NCBI RefSeq assembly: GCF_000979455.1
Contig: NZ_JJOY01000005.1
Coordinates: forward strand, 1 to 64,000
Source: Methanosarcina sp. 2.H.T.1A.6
GTDB lineage: Archaea > Halobacteriota > Methanosarcinia > Methanosarcinales > Methanosarcinaceae
Length of the DNA: 64,000 bases
Reading direction: 5' to 3'
In this document: in pieces, positions 15,304 through 23,702 of the stretch
Layout of the letters: each line of letters begins with the position of its first letter
Numbering within the stretch: position 1 is the stretch's first letter
Notes under the pieces: generated by a model
What the model saw: only the letters and a program-made list of their open reading frames with translations
Told to the model about the DNA's origin: nothing
The model's database searches: none
Translations under genes and position numbers: made by a program

Positions 15304-15576
15304 TTAATTCTCACTTCTATTTTCTAATGTAACTCGTATAAGGGTAATATGCGGCTTTAATTTTATAGCTACCTTTTTATAAAACAAACGTACGCTGAGA
15401 GGGTAGTTTTTGTAACTTTTATCCCCGGTCATTATATGGTCTTTCGGATCAAGGGGAAGCACAAATGTGAAAATCCTACCTTCTCCAACTTTGTTTTCAA
15501 CCCGGATTTTGCCACCGTGCTTTGGCAGACCGGACTTTGATAACCCCATACCAGGAAACAGGTGATGATATAAAAC
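15304..15576 (-). pseudogene. Remnant of a histidine kinase (C-terminal ATPase end)
   Basis: The minus strand encodes GMGLSKSGLPKHGGKIRVENKVGEG followed by FTFVLPL, the G2 box and last strand of a HATPase_c domain (compare [20 protein letters not shown] in the kinase at 18997). The H-box, N-box and G1 box are absent, and the frame is closed by a stop shortly upstream. About 35 residues after FTFVLPL are unrelated. This is the tail of a deleted kinase gene. Confidence 0.65.
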
Positions 15577-15659
15577 GGAAGATATTTTTTACATATTTAA
15601 TAAGGGTTTGAATTGTTTGATTTTGTTTCTTTCTGGGTTTGACGGGATAGCTTTTGTTC

Positions 15660-16760
15660 TTACAAGAGGCGAGATTTCCCCCTCATAAATTCCTTTACGG
15701 GAGTGAAGTGAAGCTTTGCTACTTCTCCTATGTCGTGTTTGTTGTGCACTCTGGCCAGGAAGCTGCCTACCATATTTGCTCCCTTGGGAACTGTAACTCC
15801 AATCTCTTTGGACCTCTCGTCCATGACACTCAGGAATGCATCTCTGGCAAGTACGGATGCTGCAGCTACTGCCATAGACTTCTCTTCGGCCCTGGTGGTC
15901 TCGATGAGGTTTACTTTGTTCAACACATTTCTCTGAGACAGGGCTTCAGACACAACATTGTTACTTGCAAACTGGTCGACGACGACAGTTGGACACTCGA
16001 TGTTGATCAGTTTCACAGCTTCTGCAATGTTTCGTGCATGGGCCTGGGCAAGGAGAACATTCAGGTTGCCGTACTTTGCATACATTGCATTATACTCGCG
16101 TGGGTTATACGTGTGGATTACATACTTTCCAGCACAGTGCTTCTTAATGAGCTGAGCAACCTGCCTGATCTTGCCATCAGTCAGGGTCTTGGAATCCGCA
16201 ACCATGTGCTTCAGGATGGACATTGCTTCCTGAGACAGTGAATTGTCGATGCAGAATGCAGCTGTTACCAGAGTCTCACATGCTCCGCCCTTTCCTACTT
16301 CATCTGCTCCTATACAAAACAGGGGAAACTTCTCCGAGACGATTGGGTTACTGATTCCATTTTCCGAAGCCTGGGAAGCTACTATCTCGGACAGCCGCTG
16401 CAGGCAGATGGCAGGAATTGTAATCTTATGCTTGAATTCGCTCAGGTCGATGTTCTGGATAATCTCTATGATTTTTGCAGATTCTGGGTTATCTCCAAAC
16501 CTGGACATGTCGATGGTAAACCCATTTTTCTTGGACGAATAGATGTTAATCTGACCTACCCAGTTGCTGAAGCCAGTCCTGAACTGGATAAATTCTGCAG
16601 TGTTCTGCATCATCTTTATGTCCGAGACTACAATACCATGAGCCGTAAGCCCATTTGAAACCAGTGTAAACATCTCTTTTAGGGTCATGATCATCGAAAA
16701 GTGAGTTGTGGTTTTGGGAGGAAGAACCCTTTGATCCGGATATAGATGAAAAAACTGCAA
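15660..16760 (-). CDS. Ribonuclease H type 2 (HII/HIII-like)
   Basis: A 366-residue RNase H that cleaves RNA in RNA-DNA hybrids. The C-terminal catalytic domain (about 148-366) has the Asp-Glu pair in IGADEVGKGG (Asp153, Glu154), Asp262 in VVVDQFA and Asp307 in SVLARDAFL. The extra 145 N-terminal residues resemble the substrate-binding extension of RNase HIII more than the short archaeal HII. The first 22 residues look non-conserved and an internal ATG at 16694 is a plausible real start; neither start has a clear ribosome site. It is followed by a decayed kinase fragment and preceded by a tRNA region. Confidence 0.85.
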   Translation of the reverse strand: MQFFHLYPDQRVLPPKTTTHFSMIMTLKEMFTLVSNGLTAHGIVVSDIKMMQNTAEFIQFRTGFSNWVGQINIYSSKKNGFTIDMSRFGDNPESAKIIEIIQNIDLSEFKHKITIPAICLQRLSEIVASQASENGISNPIVSEKFPLFCIGADEVGKGGACETLVTAAFCIDNSLSQEAMSILKHMVADSKTLTDGKIRQVAQLIKKHCAGKYVIHTYNPREYNAMYAKYGNLNVLLAQAHARNIAEAVKLINIECPTVVVDQFASNNVVSEALSQRNVLNKVNLIETTRAEEKSMAVAAASVLARDAFLSVMDERSKEIGVTVPKGANMVGSFLARVHNKHDIGEVAKLHFTPVKEFMRGKSRLL

Positions 16761-18474: not shown

Positions 18475-18923
18475 ATGTATTTGCTCTACGCTAATATTGA
18501 ACTGAAAATTAAAGGGGAAACCGGACATGGAATACTTCCTGCAGATGTAAAAGAAGCACTTGCAAATCAGCAGGTTACCTCTCAGTAACCGCAGACAAAA
18601 ACGGCGTTCCAAACGTATGCCTGATGGGTTTGGTGAAAGTAAGAAACGATGAGACTCTTTATCATGGCAAATGTTTCCCGGAAAAAGACCGAGCAAACCT
18701 GAACGAAAACCTGAAAGCTGCCCTCTGCGCTTACATGCCTCCGATGAAAGCCTACCCAATAAAAAGAAATGTGGAACTTATCAGTGAAGTTCCTCTCATG
18801 AATGAGGTTGCCGACCGGGTCATTTTGAAGATAGTAAACCTTAAACCCAACGGAGCTACCTTCCCCATGTAGAGGAGATATACAGTTTATCCCCCGGTCC
18901 GAGTGCAGGGGAAAGAATCTCAT
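18475..18923 (+). pseudogene. Frameshifted pyridoxamine-oxidase-like flavin protein
   Basis: Frame 1 encodes ILPADVKEALANQQVT and then stops. Moving one base, the sequence continues VTADKNGVPNVCLMGLVKV..DETL.. to NLNENLKAALCAY, the usual pattern of small FMN-binding split-barrel (PPOX-class) proteins. One missing base near 18585 joins the halves. A second stop (TAG after ATFPM, near 18870) cuts the C-terminus, although YTVYPPVRVQGKES still follows. A small flavoprotein gene has been inactivated here. Confidence 0.72.
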
Positions 18924-18996
18924 AAAAATTTCATAAGAATTTTTACCTAATTTTTCATTTCTACTGTGTTCCGGCACAGCTCACTTTTTTCCCGAA

Positions 18997-20424
18997 TCAT
19001 TTAATCGGTAATGTGAACATGAATGTGCTGCCTTTTCCTACTTCGCTCTCTATCCCTATTTTCCCACCATGCAGTTCCACAATTTTCTGGACAATGGTGA
19101 GTCCAAGTCCGCTTCCCTGATACGTGCGTGCCTCCTCGGTGTCTATCTGGCTGAAAGGCTTAAATAGCTTCTTCTGGTCCTCCTGCGAGATCCCAACACC
19201 ATTATCCCTTACAGAGATTTCTGCAAAGTCTCCGCCAATCTGGGCCCCGATGGTCACTGAACCTTCACAAGGCGTGAACTTGATTGCGTTGCTTGTAAGG
19301 TTGTAGAGGACCTCTTTGAATTTTTCTCTGTCTGCGTGGAGTACCCGGAGCTGGGGGTCGAGATCTTTCTCAAGGCGGATATTCTTTTTTGATGCCAGAG
19401 GAAGGAGTGTTGTCACGACCTCACAAATCGATTCCGGTACCGAGATCTCTGTATATCGCAGCTCCATCTTTCCTGCTTCGATTCTAGAAAGGTCAAGGAT
19501 ATCATTGATTAGAGACAACTGGTGTTTTCCGTTCATGGAAATATTGCCAACATACTTTCTTTGCTTCTCATTCAGCGGTCCGATAACCTGCTCAAGCAAA
19601 AAATCCGAATATCCAATAATAGAGTTCAGAGGTGTCCTCAATTCATGGCTCACGTTGGCCAGAAACTTAGACTTGGTGTTGTTTGCCTCTTCAGCGGCCA
19701 GTTTGGCTCGAACCATCATCTCTTCTGCTCGCATCTGATCGGTTACATCGATCCCCAGGCCTCCGTAGACTGTTGCTCCTTCGTCCAGATTGATAGGAAA
19801 CCTTATGGTGCGGTAGAAAAGTTCTTTTCCTTCCGGATCTACAAGAGTTTCTGTCTTTGTGATACTGTCTTTTTCTTCAGAGTTCGCATCTCTGATCCAC
19901 TCCTCTATTCGGAAGTATTCTTTCAGATAATTATTTGAATTCAGATAATTATTTGAATATACAACAAGTTCTGCGTCATCTTTTATGAATGCAGCAGCAG
20001 GCAAATTATCCATAAATGTGGCAAATTGTTTTTTGCTATGCTGTAGTTTTTTGGAGTATTTTTTTAGTTCTCTATTCGTCTGCTCCAGTTCTTCAGCATA
20101 TCTCTGTAGTTCTCTCCTGCTTTTTTCGGAAGCTTCGATCCATTCTCTGAAGGCAAGGCCATAGGCCATCATCATTTCCATCAGAGGGGTTGAAATATAA
20201 CGTGCGGATTCGATGAGTTTCGCGTTTGGATAAGTTTCTGCAAGGCGAGCTATTGCTTCCTCATGGATCTCTGCGAGGTCCTCAGGAGGTATGTTTTCTC
20301 GGACAAGCTCTCTACCGAGTTTCTCTATTTCAAAAAGGTACTTTTCATCAGGGTCATCAAAATAATTTTTTAGAAGACTGTGGTATCGGTGTTTGAATTT
20401 TTGCAGTGGCATAGGGTAAATCAC
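18997..20424 (-). CDS. Histidine kinase with RsbU-like N-terminal domain
   Basis: A 475-residue soluble kinase. Residues 5-95 resemble the RsbT-binding N-terminal domain of RsbU ([39 protein letters not shown]); a coiled coil spans 95-135 and a PAS domain 135-235. HisKA has [20 protein letters not shown] (His260), and HATPase_c has NAIKF, DNGVGIS and [13 protein letters not shown]. The GTG start overlaps the stop of the RsbX-like phosphatase gene by four bases, implying translational coupling; an ATG 12 bases later is possible. No receiver domain or membrane helix is present. As last gene of an rsbR-S-T-X cluster it is probably the output partner of RsbT. An 18 bp tandem duplication lies in the PAS region. 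Confidence 0.9.
19922..19957. repeat. 18-bp in-frame tandem duplication in the kinase PAS domain
   Basis: Two perfect copies of TTCAGATAATTATTTGAA lie head to tail and encode a repeated SNNYLN segment (about residues 158-167). The duplication is in frame and lengthens a PAS loop by six residues. Confidence 0.9.
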
Positions 20425-21035
20425 TCATTATATCTGTTATAGATTAGAATTGTAGCATCGTCTGTTTCTTTTGCATGATCCCGAAGTATTTGATTTGCCA
20501 GTTTTTGCACATCCCTGCAGAGGAACTCGTCATAACCGGAAATATCAAGACGTTCTGAGATGCCGTCAGTCCACATGAACACAAGGTCACCATCAGCCAG
20601 GTCTACAGTATTTGTATTTAATTTCCTGTACCCACCCCCAACGATACCCCAATCGCTGCTCAAATTCATTTTTTTTCTACCCTTTATCACTACATTGATA
20701 TTCCCTATTCCCCCATGAGTCAATGTTGAATTGTTTTTATCAACAATGACTATGCTCATTGCCGTCCCTCTTGTATGTTTTATCTCCCGGTCACACTTCT
20801 CAAATATACGGTGCAGTGGTTCACAGAGGTTACGAGATATACAGTCTATAGCTGCTTTTGCAGCCTTTTCAGCCTCTATTCCATGCCCGAGGCCGTCAAC
20901 CATACATAATGTTATATTATCCTCGTTTTCCCACCACCTACACTGATCTCCACAATGTGGGTCGTTGAAGAAAGAATGAGTTGCAGTACCTATGTTCATG
21001 TGTTTCATTCTCTTTTCCAGGCTCTCTGATTCCAC
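20421..21035 (-). CDS. rsbX: RsbX-like PP2C phosphatase
   Basis: A 204-residue SpoIIE/RsbX-type serine phosphatase. Metal-binding aspartates are visible in [20 protein letters not shown] and [11 protein letters not shown], and HGGIGNINV is the central motif. In Bacillus, RsbX removes phosphate from RsbR and RsbS and resets the stressosome. Here it lies between rsbT and the kinase, as rsbX lies near rsbRST in bacteria. The frame opens at GTG (21035); ATGs at 21008 and 20999 are alternatives, and the phosphatase fold begins soon after. The 3' end overlaps the kinase start. Confidence 0.85.
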
Positions 21036-21207
21036 CTTAAATGGCCGTTATATTTTCCCAACTCTTTGACAGTTTATCCTGGTTCCGGACTTTACCTTCT
21101 GCAGGATTCAGGTGCTAATATCTTCACAGCGCCCGGTTCAACAAATTAAATGGTTCCCCCATTTCGAGGATGAATTTTTTATGTTAGGATTTTTGCGTCA
21201 CATCAAA

Positions 21208-21606
21208 TTATTTCCGGGCTCTTTTGATCTCCAGGGTAATTTTTGTATATCCTGGCTCTGATGCTATGTCAAAATTGTTTACAAGCCGCCTGGCTCCCGG
21301 AAGCCCTGCCCCCAGCCCATTTCTCGTAGTGAATCCGTCTTCCATTGCCTGCTCAATATCCCCAATTCCGGGGCCGTTGTCTTCTACAACTACTTTAATA
21401 CCCATTTCCCTTTCATCCTGTTCTTCACAAATTGAACAGCTTCCTTCTCCTGCATATTTCAGGACATTCCTGGCCAGTTCAGAGATGGCCGTGGCCATAC
21501 GTGTCTGATCTGCCGAACCAAACCCCAATTCCTTCATGGTCTCCTTTGCTGTCTGCCTTGCGAACAGGAGATCACTCTCGGTTTTAATCGGTATTTTCTT
21601 ATTCAT
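21208..21606 (-). CDS. rsbT: RsbT-like switch serine kinase
   Basis: A 132-residue GHKL-type kinase of the RsbT/RsbW group. The N-box is ISELARNVLKYA, the G1 box VEDNGPGIGD, and the glycine lid GLGAGLPGARRLVN. The LPGARRL form is typical of RsbT, not of RsbW. In Bacillus, RsbT sits in the stressosome, phosphorylates RsbS and RsbR, and is then released to activate RsbU. It contains four closely spaced cysteine or acidic positions (SCSICEEQDE) not usual for the family. It is flanked on both sides by gaps of about 170 bases. Confidence 0.9.
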   Translation of the reverse strand: MNKKIPIKTESDLLFARQTAKETMKELGFGSADQTRMATAISELARNVLKYAGEGSCSICEEQDEREMGIKVVVEDNGPGIGDIEQAMEDGFTTRNGLGAGLPGARRLVNNFDIASEPGYTKITLEIKRARK

Positions 21607-21778
21607 TGCTTATTCCCTCTCAGGTTATCCCCCATCATTAATCTGGTATTTCCCATAATTTACCCATACCCGGACTCTGTATGCAATTTTCCACTCATCT
21701 TATTATCCTGTTGCTGTGGCACAGGTAAGTATGGAAAATACATCCCCGCAGGTAAGAATTTATACAATTTTTAATTCT

Positions 21779-22153
21779 TCAACTGTTTAATGAGGTCTGA
21801 TTCCATTTTGTGGAAATGAGTATTTTGTCAAGCCCCTTGCCGAGGTTAAGTGCTGTCTGCACACCTATCAGTTCGCGCCCCATTTCAACAAGGGTCAGAG
21901 CAACCATAGGCTGCATGCCGCAGAGTACCACTTCCGCCCCCATTATTTGCGCCATATTTGCCGTTTCATTGATAACTCTCGCCATAAATGAATCGACAAT
22001 CTCCATGCCCGTTATATCAATGAGAACTCCTATTGCTTCGGTTTTTTCAAGCATTTTCAGCATCTGGGACTGGTATTCAAGTACCTCGTTGTCTGTAAGG
22101 TCCCCTGGTATCGATGACAGCAAAACGTCCTTCACTTTCAATATCGGAATCAT
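21779..22153 (-). CDS. rsbS: RsbS-like STAS protein
   Basis: A single STAS domain of about 124 residues, starting MIPILKVKDVLLSSIPGDL. The phospho-acceptor loop DITGMEIVDSFMARV carries the serine equivalent to Bacillus RsbS Ser59, and GMQPMVALTLVEMG is the family C-terminal motif. I choose the ATG at 22153, which follows GAGGT and gives the length of bacterial RsbS; a GTG at 22171 would overlap rsbR. In the family RsbS, together with RsbR, forms the stressosome core and holds RsbT. Confidence 0.9.
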   Translation of the reverse strand: MIPILKVKDVLLSSIPGDLTDNEVLEYQSQMLKMLEKTEAIGVLIDITGMEIVDSFMARVINETANMAQIMGAEVVLCGMQPMVALTLVEMGRELIGVQTALNLGKGLDKILISTKWNQTSLNS

Positions 22154-22160
22154 TTTTTCA

Positions 22161-22967
22161 TTACCTCTCACAGGAGACTACTTTCTTTCCCATTATACCG
22201 AAGGCTTTTGAGATCCCTGTTTTCAGTGAACCGCAGGTCGTGATATTGCTCAGGTCTATTCCGAGTGTGACCAGGGTCTGTGAGACTTCAGGGCTGAAAC
22301 CAGTTAGAATTGTCTTTGCCCCGAGCATTTTTGCTGCATTTACTGCCTTGATGATATGCCTTGCAACTGCAGTGTCTACTACCGGCACTCCCGTGAGGTC
22401 CAGAATCGCCAATTCTGCTTCATTTTCCACAATTGAATTTAGCAGGTTTTCTATAATCTGCTGTGCACGTGCTGTATCGATGGCTCCTACCAGAGGCAGC
22501 AACAGGACCCCATCCCATATTTTGATCACAGGGGTTGCAAGCTCCAGAATCGTCCGGGTCTGTACACGAAGATCATTTTCCAGCTTTACTCTGTTAGTAA
22601 TATCCGTAATATATTCGAGCCCTCCAACGATGTTCCCATCCTCGTCTTTTAAGGGCACAGCTGTTATCTCTACGTTGATTGTTTCTCTCTGACACGGAAT
22701 TTCATAGTGGCCTGCATATTTTTTGCCGCTGTCCATTGCTCGCTTGATCCCACACTTAGAGACACTGCAGCACTTTGCTTCCAGAACTTCGTAACATTTT
22801 TTTCCAATTACTTCTTTCAATTCTTTTTTATGCCACTCGCAACCCGCCGGGTTGATAAACAAAATCTTAAAGTCCTTATCTACAGCTATTACAGGAATTG
22901 GGATTGATTCAAGAAGAGCATGTTCCAGGTCTCGTACCTCTATGTTGGATTTATTTGCAGTGTTCAT
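22161..22967 (-). CDS. rsbR: RsbR-like PAS-STAS stressosome sensor
   Basis: A 268-residue protein with an N-terminal PAS domain (about 12-128) and a C-terminal STAS domain (about 140-262). The STAS part has TPVIKIWDGVLLLPLVGAID, the phospho-acceptor loop DLTGVPVVDTAVARH and TGFSPEVSQTLVTLGIDL, all typical of RsbR paralogues. Instead of the globin-like sensor of Bacillus RsbRA it has PAS with a cysteine cluster (KCYEVLEAKCCSVSKCG), as in other methanogen sensor PAS domains, which suggests redox, heme or metal sensing. It is the first gene of the rsbR-S-T-X-kinase cluster and faces a 430-base AT-rich promoter region. Confidence 0.9.
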   Translation of the reverse strand: MNTANKSNIEVRDLEHALLESIPIPVIAVDKDFKILFINPAGCEWHKKELKEVIGKKCYEVLEAKCCSVSKCGIKRAMDSGKKYAGHYEIPCQRETINVEITAVPLKDEDGNIVGGLEYITDITNRVKLENDLRVQTRTILELATPVIKIWDGVLLLPLVGAIDTARAQQIIENLLNSIVENEAELAILDLTGVPVVDTAVARHIIKAVNAAKMLGAKTILTGFSPEVSQTLVTLGIDLSNITTCGSLKTGISKAFGIMGKKVVSCER

Positions 22968-23399
22968 TTTTCACCCTCAGTTGCCTGATTTTCTAATCTT
23001 GTGGAGCAATGTTTCACGGCCTTTATTATTTAAAATGAAGTTAAAACCAATTATTTGAAGTCTTCAATTTTTGCTGTATTAAATTTAAATCTCTTACCAT
23101 TATATTATATACTTTTATTTTATATTTAATATATTGGTCAGTATTGTACTTAAATTTTTTTATACACTTAGTTGCTATACTTCATGCTTTAATTTAATAC
23201 TAAAGATGCTCTTCTATTAAAGTGGAGGAAAATTAGATTCTGAATCAGGTTTTCAAAGGAGTATGGGGCACTCTAAATTTGGGAAACAACATAAATATGA
23301 TCATACTTATCAGTAATTTACTGAATTGCACACAAAATTCGGATGGGCAAACAAACTTATACCCCATAATCCTAACAAAAAGAGGACGGTGATCCCTGG
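22968..23399. promoter_or_regulatory. AT-rich divergent promoter region
   Basis: Between rsbR (leftward) and the 100-residue protein gene (rightward). It contains several TATA-like runs near 23095-23170 that could serve the rsb cluster. GGTGA lies seven bases before the ATG at 23400. No further gene is seen. Confidence 0.5.
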
Positions 23400-23702
23400 A
23401 TGCACAAAACACTCAATCTTGAAGATTTAATCGCCAAAAAGAATAAAGAGAATGTAGAGAAAGATGCCGATCTGGAGTATGAAGAGCTCTACGACCTGAT
23501 TATCCCCCCTGGAACGGTTGTGTCCATCATCTACGATATCGTGGAAGAATTTGGTCTTGAACCCGTAACGCGGAAGATGCCTATTGGTATTGTAAACAGT
23601 GAGGAAAGGGAAATTCTTGTCCTTCGTGGCCCTCTTGAAAAGGTTCAGGCCGCAGAAGAATTTCTCTATAATGAAATGAAGGCCTGGGTCGAAGATAAGT
23701 AA
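23400..23702 (+). CDS. Conserved-looking 100-residue acidic protein
   Basis: A 100-residue soluble protein with a charged N-terminus (residues 1-28) and a compact C-terminal part including LIIPPGTVVSIIYDIVEEFG and ILVLRGPLEKVQAAEEFLYNEM, which looks like a small alpha-beta domain. GGTGA precedes the ATG with good spacing. I recognise no named family. It is convergent with the methanogenesis marker 2 gene. Confidence 0.7.
   Translation: MHKTLNLEDLIAKKNKENVEKDADLEYEELYDLIIPPGTVVSIIYDIVEEFGLEPVTRKMPIGIVNSEEREILVLRGPLEKVQAAEEFLYNEMKAWVEDK

Follow-up and report, generated by a model that had tools for sequence, protein, structure and literature searches.

A stressosome-type gene module with a putative histidine kinase output in Methanosarcina

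The sigma-B stressosome of Bacillus subtilis and Listeria comprises an RsbR-RsbS-RsbT core with its phospho-sites, RsbX, the RsbU phosphatase and an RsbV-type protein. In Bacillus, RsbT binds to the RsbU_N domain and the following linker and activates the phosphatase (PMC12143880). Other outputs have also been described. In the part of the Moorella thermoacetica work that is relayed in PMC12143880 (Quin et al. 2012), the RsbU_N-fused protein under RsbT is an RsbU_N-GAF-GGDEF diguanylate cyclase. In Proteobacteria, RsbU_N is found on downstream proteins (Heinz et al. 2022, PMC9237108), and RsbU_N-kinases, which were modelled in PMC12143880, are encoded in rst operons (Heinz et al. 2022, PMC9237108; Baral et al. 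2025, PMC12143880). The gene set rsbRSTX is furthermore known from some archaea (Heinz et al. 2022, PMC9237108). Here, we describe a five-gene locus of this type in Methanosarcina sp. 2.H.T.1A.6 (genome of 4.07 Mb, 99.9% complete), located in a 64,000-nucleotide stretch of contig NZ_JJOY01000005.1, referred to below as the window. Judged from its sequence, the locus likely functions as a partner-switching module of the stressosome type with control over a histidine kinase.

The locus shares its gene set and order, R-S-T-X followed by an RsbU_N kinase, with the Gram-negative rsbRSTX and RsbU_N-HisKA systems (PMC9237108, PMC12143880). The papers on those systems centre on a globin RsbR, whereas the present one has an archaeal host, a Methanosarcina-type kinase core and an RsbR with a cysteine-containing PAS domain. 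It has in common with Moorella an RsbU_N-fused output under RsbT, here a histidine kinase instead of a cyclase, and with Bacillus subtilis and Listeria the RsbR-RsbS-RsbT core, the phospho-sites and RsbX. Methanolobus operons of the order R-S-T-T2-X-RsbU_N-histidine kinase contain orthologues of R, S, T, X and of RsbU_N with its linker, but they include an extra GHKL gene (T2) and have a different kinase core attached directly to the linker. A preliminary description of the locus had likened its gene order to the bacterial operon, which holds for the Gram-negative order R-S-T-(T2)-X-RsbU_N-kinase but not for that of Bacillus (R-S-T-U-V-W-sigB-X). It had also regarded such modules as known mainly from bacteria; however, archaeal stressosome genes are already in print (PMC9237108, PMC10014275, PMC8942246), as are proteobacterial RsbU_N-kinases. 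No earlier report was found of RsbT-to-RsbU_N-kinase wiring in a methanogen, of the kinase swap or of the repeated loss described below, and no Methanosarcina stressosome paper was found in a literature search for which subscription journals were mostly outside reach.

The core genes and the candidate output kinase

The locus occupies positions 18997-22967 of the window on the minus strand, and its five open reading frames encode a PAS-STAS RsbR, RsbS, RsbT, RsbX and a histidine kinase. Open reading frame coordinates, Pfam and matches to sequences in the PDB bear out the cluster as previously proposed. The rsbR gene (22161..22967) encodes a PAS sensor domain, a helical linker and a STAS domain (Pfam PAS_4 and STAS), and the top PDB match of the protein is RsbR (E 1.4e-33). 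Alignment places T165 and T199 at the Listeria phospho-threonines T175 and T209 (Listeria numbering for RsbR and RsbS from PMC8942246); both are invariant in Methanosarcina and Methanolobus, and archaea further removed have T or S at these positions. The stand-alone STAS protein encoded by rsbS (21779..22171; probable start at ATG 22153, judging by the starts in relatives) has RsbS as its top PDB match (E 2e-26). Its predicted phospho-acceptor S61 aligns to Listeria S56, in agreement with the conserved phospho-serine claimed earlier, and a check for phospho-site loss in relatives found this serine invariant in 11 archaeal RsbS proteins.

RsbT (21208..21606; Pfam HATPase_c/HATPase_c_2) is a stand-alone GHKL switch kinase whose N-box asparagine, N47, is invariant in relatives. 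No close PDB relative was found for it by single-sequence search, and it is 46-64% identical to RsbT of other genomes (bacteria and Methanolobus), nearly all of which adjoin rsbS. The rsbT gene is flanked by gaps of 172 bases on either side. The SpoIIE/PP2C-type feedback phosphatase RsbX (20421..21035; Pfam SpoIIE/PP2C; start probably near 21000, as in relatives) has the conserved acidic residues D30, D47, D157, D192 and D193. Its best PDB match is the SpoIIE-type 3zt9 (E 3e-16), presumably a Moorella protein, and RsbX 3w40 is matched at E 7e-11. Since none of the NCBIfam models scored at or above its cut-off with RsbS, RsbT or RsbX, the proteins were assigned to families by PDB matches, gene context and trees. 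Contamination as the source of the locus was ruled out, because many Methanosarcina genomes show synteny with its flanks.

The fifth gene (18997..20424; start probably at 20412, as in relatives) had been described as a plain histidine kinase. HisKA and HATPase_c are indeed present, but an N-terminal RsbU_N domain had been overlooked (Pfam 53.3 bits against a cut-off of 25.5). Between RsbU_N and HisKA lie a helical linker and a middle region (about residues 130-245) without a Pfam match. A PDB search with a profile built from archaeal RsbU_N domains yields the Bacillus RsbU N-terminal structures at 1e-26, a score inflated by the one Bacillus RsbU included in the profile; the Pfam score is independent of this. 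AlphaFold2 predicts four helices for the RsbU_N segment (20068..20412; pLDDT, the predicted local distance difference test, 92.6), the last of which (segment residues 63-114) continues as the long linker helix of the predicted RsbT docking and relay segment. When this model was submitted to Foldseek, the top eight neighbours were all RsbU N-termini (probability 0.99-1.00), which supports the fold without proving it because the E-values are 0.035 or worse. In addition, the profile finds the C-terminal domain of KaiA (1r5q, E 1e-4), which is likewise among the structural neighbours and suggests a common fold.

To our knowledge, archaea have no sigma factors and hence no sigma-B. It had been concluded from this that the output here must differ, which is incomplete: the sequence itself supplies a candidate, because the kinase carries the RsbT docking domain RsbU_N. 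The genome contains one copy of RsbU_N, in the locus kinase; the only STAS proteins found in it are RsbR and RsbS, and the only SpoIIE-family phosphatase is RsbX. A STAS_2 search of the genome returned only RsbR, below the cut-off, and no separate STAS_2 protein. Among 16 genomic HATPase_c_2 matches, RsbT is the sole stand-alone short protein, except for one kinase fragment of 162 residues. The RsbU_N domain, the STAS proteins, the SpoIIE phosphatase and RsbT of this genome thus all lie within the locus. No RsbV-type protein or RsbU-type (RsbU_N-PP2C) phosphatase was found in the genome, and a sigma-B-like cascade was ruled out on these grounds. The adjacent kinase is the sole candidate target of RsbT that is evident from sequence.

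Proposed signalling and its alternatives

By analogy with work on Bacillus, Listeria and Moorella, RsbR and RsbS would build a core that holds RsbT. Upon a signal sensed by the PAS domain of RsbR, RsbT would phosphorylate S61 of RsbS and the two RsbR threonines and then leave the core. The released RsbT may dock on an RsbU_N dimer and its linker, thereby ordering the coiled coil, which most likely would switch the autokinase activity of HisKA-HATPase and produce a stressosome-driven phosphorelay. The phosphoryl group would pass to one or more of the receiver proteins of the genome, in which 23 receiver matches were found elsewhere, and RsbX would reset the core by stripping the phosphates.

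RsbU_N was found in 16 of 60 close relatives (a list that includes the genome of the window) and in 23 members of a phylum-wide sample of 394 genomes, and the two surveys together yield 33 distinct Halobacteriota genomes, again with that of the window included. Genes rsbS and rsbT adjoin RsbU_N in 24 of these 33, and in 2 a clear RsbT lies away from it. The attached output parts vary and include HisKA kinases, a GAF3-kinase, PAS-kinase-receiver hybrids and an RsbU_N-GAF protein. The latter occurs in one related archaeal family (L017 7289-8383, L019 8579-9664); its GAF domain is weak, its C-terminal stretch of about 110 residues is unrecognised, and no kinase, phosphatase or cyclase domain was recognised anywhere in the protein. 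Two Methanolobus genomes (L142 7342-8295, L143 7595-8446) encode an RsbU_N-kinase but no clear RsbT genome-wide.

Several observations weigh against the proposed wiring. Seven of the 33 RsbU_N genomes have no clear RsbT, and RsbU_N proteins can thus occur where RsbT is missing. The reported RsbT-RsbU contact residues are only partly kept: on the RsbU side, E24 is retained and Y28 is replaced by F, with an uncertain linker register, while on the RsbT side R19 is retained, R23 is replaced by K and N24 by E. The mapping of RsbU R91 to RsbT D92 hinges on an alignment gap within the linker and was left unused as evidence. Furthermore, no response regulator adjoins the kinase among the ten neighbours scanned. 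The R-S-T-X module could instead act on another kinase or a transcription factor, with the adjacent kinase as a mere neighbour or an extra input. The few genomes in which RsbU_N kinases persist without RsbT favour this, as does the Vibrio vulnificus stressosome, which is tied to a two-component system made up of proteins without RsbU_N (PMC9237108). We nevertheless consider it unlikely, given that RsbU_N is the RsbT docking domain, that its one copy in the genome lies inside the cluster and that its adjacency to rsbS-rsbT is kept in the majority of RsbU_N genomes counted above.

Probable origin, proposed kinase exchange and loss of the module

A tree was built from concatenated RsbR-STAS, RsbS and RsbT sequences (53 rows), for which the bacterial rows had been chosen as similar to archaeal RsbT. 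The 9 rows of Methanosarcina and Methanolobus cluster with 10 bacterial modules at 100/100 support, apart from the other archaeal modules. The bacterial members belong to Pseudomonadota and Thermodesulfobacteriota, with one labelled Myxococcota, one Chloroflexota and one unclassified. T2 is present in 9 of the 10, in the Methanolobus order R-S-T-T2-X-RsbU_N protein, and a kinase part was detected in 8 of these 9. These results support horizontal transfer of the module into Methanosarcinaceae, and the direction, from bacteria, is indicated by one archaeal family sitting among several bacterial phyla. The similarity-based sampling of bacteria and the lack of resolution in the branch order inside the mixed clade count against this origin. 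The presence of modules in several archaeal families could alternatively reflect vertical inheritance from one Halobacteriota ancestor, without transfer into Methanosarcinaceae. This is improbable, since a single archaeal clade is rejected (approximately unbiased (AU) test, p 8e-5) and the Methanosarcinaceae modules not only group with bacterial operons but have a common gene order with them, and two of those operons also encode a cysteine-PAS RsbR. Transfer of an intact module followed by acquisition of a new output, as the preliminary description proposed, is supported in its first part only: the kinase output very likely arrived with the module, because the order is that of the Gram-negative R-S-T-(T2)-X-RsbU_N-kinase operons, and only its core would have been exchanged later.

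This exchange is indicated by the two halves of the kinase. RsbU_N and the linker are 45-50% identical to those of Methanolobus over about 120-130 residues, whereas the HisKA-HATPase_c core (18997..19707) is only 27-30% identical to the Methanolobus RsbU_N-kinases, as against 49-58% to a dozen kinases of its own genome. In a kinase-core tree, the three RsbU_N-kinases of Methanosarcina are placed with own-genome paralogues and away from the Methanolobus ones; several of the joins are long-branched, with support around 83-94. On the simplest reading of these sequences, the Methanosarcina core appears to have been replaced by a resident-type kinase behind a conserved docking domain. The only reason to regard the reverse, a swap on the Methanolobus side, as less likely is the match between the Methanosarcina core and the kinases of its own genome. 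Modular exchange has been proposed for bacteria (PMC12143880).

The gene for the second small GHKL protein, T2, separates rsbT from rsbX in Methanolobus, in one related archaeal family and in several bacteria (for example L137 8319-8762, L138 6571-7014, L017 8993-9352 and L019 7630-7995), and is missing in Methanosarcina. A decayed T2 in the rsbT-rsbX gap of the window was ruled out, as Methanolobus T2 matches only rsbT itself there.

Within the genus, the module is present in 3 of 31 Methanosarcina genomes, all at one common site. No RsbT was found in the other 28, save one weak match inside a long protein. When 15 of these 28 were compared at the site, the flanking genes were present and the module was absent. 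In one of them, a match to window positions 23027-22542 is followed, 96 bases on, by a match to 18576-18140, which leaves a disrupted 5' stub of rsbR; the junction is recognizable as a deletion scar. Carriers and stub genome fall within one 100/100 set of ten in a flanking-gene tree, and one gain followed by several losses fits this placement. Taken together, trees and synteny would be explained by a module gained with its RsbU_N-kinase from bacteria in Methanosarcinaceae, which in Methanosarcina is without T2, had its kinase core replaced and was deleted in several lineages. Although repeated loss and the gaps around rsbT might suggest a decaying, functionless remnant in Methanosarcina sp. 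2.H.T.1A.6, this is highly improbable with all five frames open, catalytic and phospho residues intact and 69-89% protein identity to two other species.

Three further features were observed around the locus. The intergenic region that separates rsbR from the divergently oriented gene at 23400 contains a block of about 25 bases (GATCATATTTATGTTGTTTCCCA, window about 23280-23310) that is kept in three genomes and is possibly a control element. A segment 3' of the kinase (18582-18977) is also kept in Methanosarcina genomes without the module. Near the cluster, a histidine kinase C-terminal fragment with an internal stop (15304-15660, minus strand) is likely a kinase pseudogene.

Conserved PAS cysteines and significance of the module

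Four cysteines in the PAS domain of RsbR (C43, C58, C67 and C72) are invariant in eight Methanosarcina and Methanolobus proteins and are also present in two bacterial relatives (the RsbRs of L035 and L042). The predicted RsbR model is of moderate confidence (pLDDT 74.7). We hypothesize a metal or redox role for these residues. More tentatively, they might bind an iron-sulfur cluster or a metal in a redox- or oxygen-sensing archaeal stressosome, whose core would drive a phosphorelay via a kinase that had been swapped for a resident one at the coiled-coil linker. If true, this would be a natural case of an output exchanged behind a conserved docking domain for RsbT.

The difference from Methanolobus suggests an exchange of the output kinase in which the sensor core and the docking domain were kept, a modular exchange of the kind proposed for bacteria, here within one archaeal family. 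Methanosarcina is a genus with genetic tools, and the locus would provide a concrete and testable stressosome wiring, from RsbT via RsbU_N to a histidine kinase, in an organism without sigma factors.

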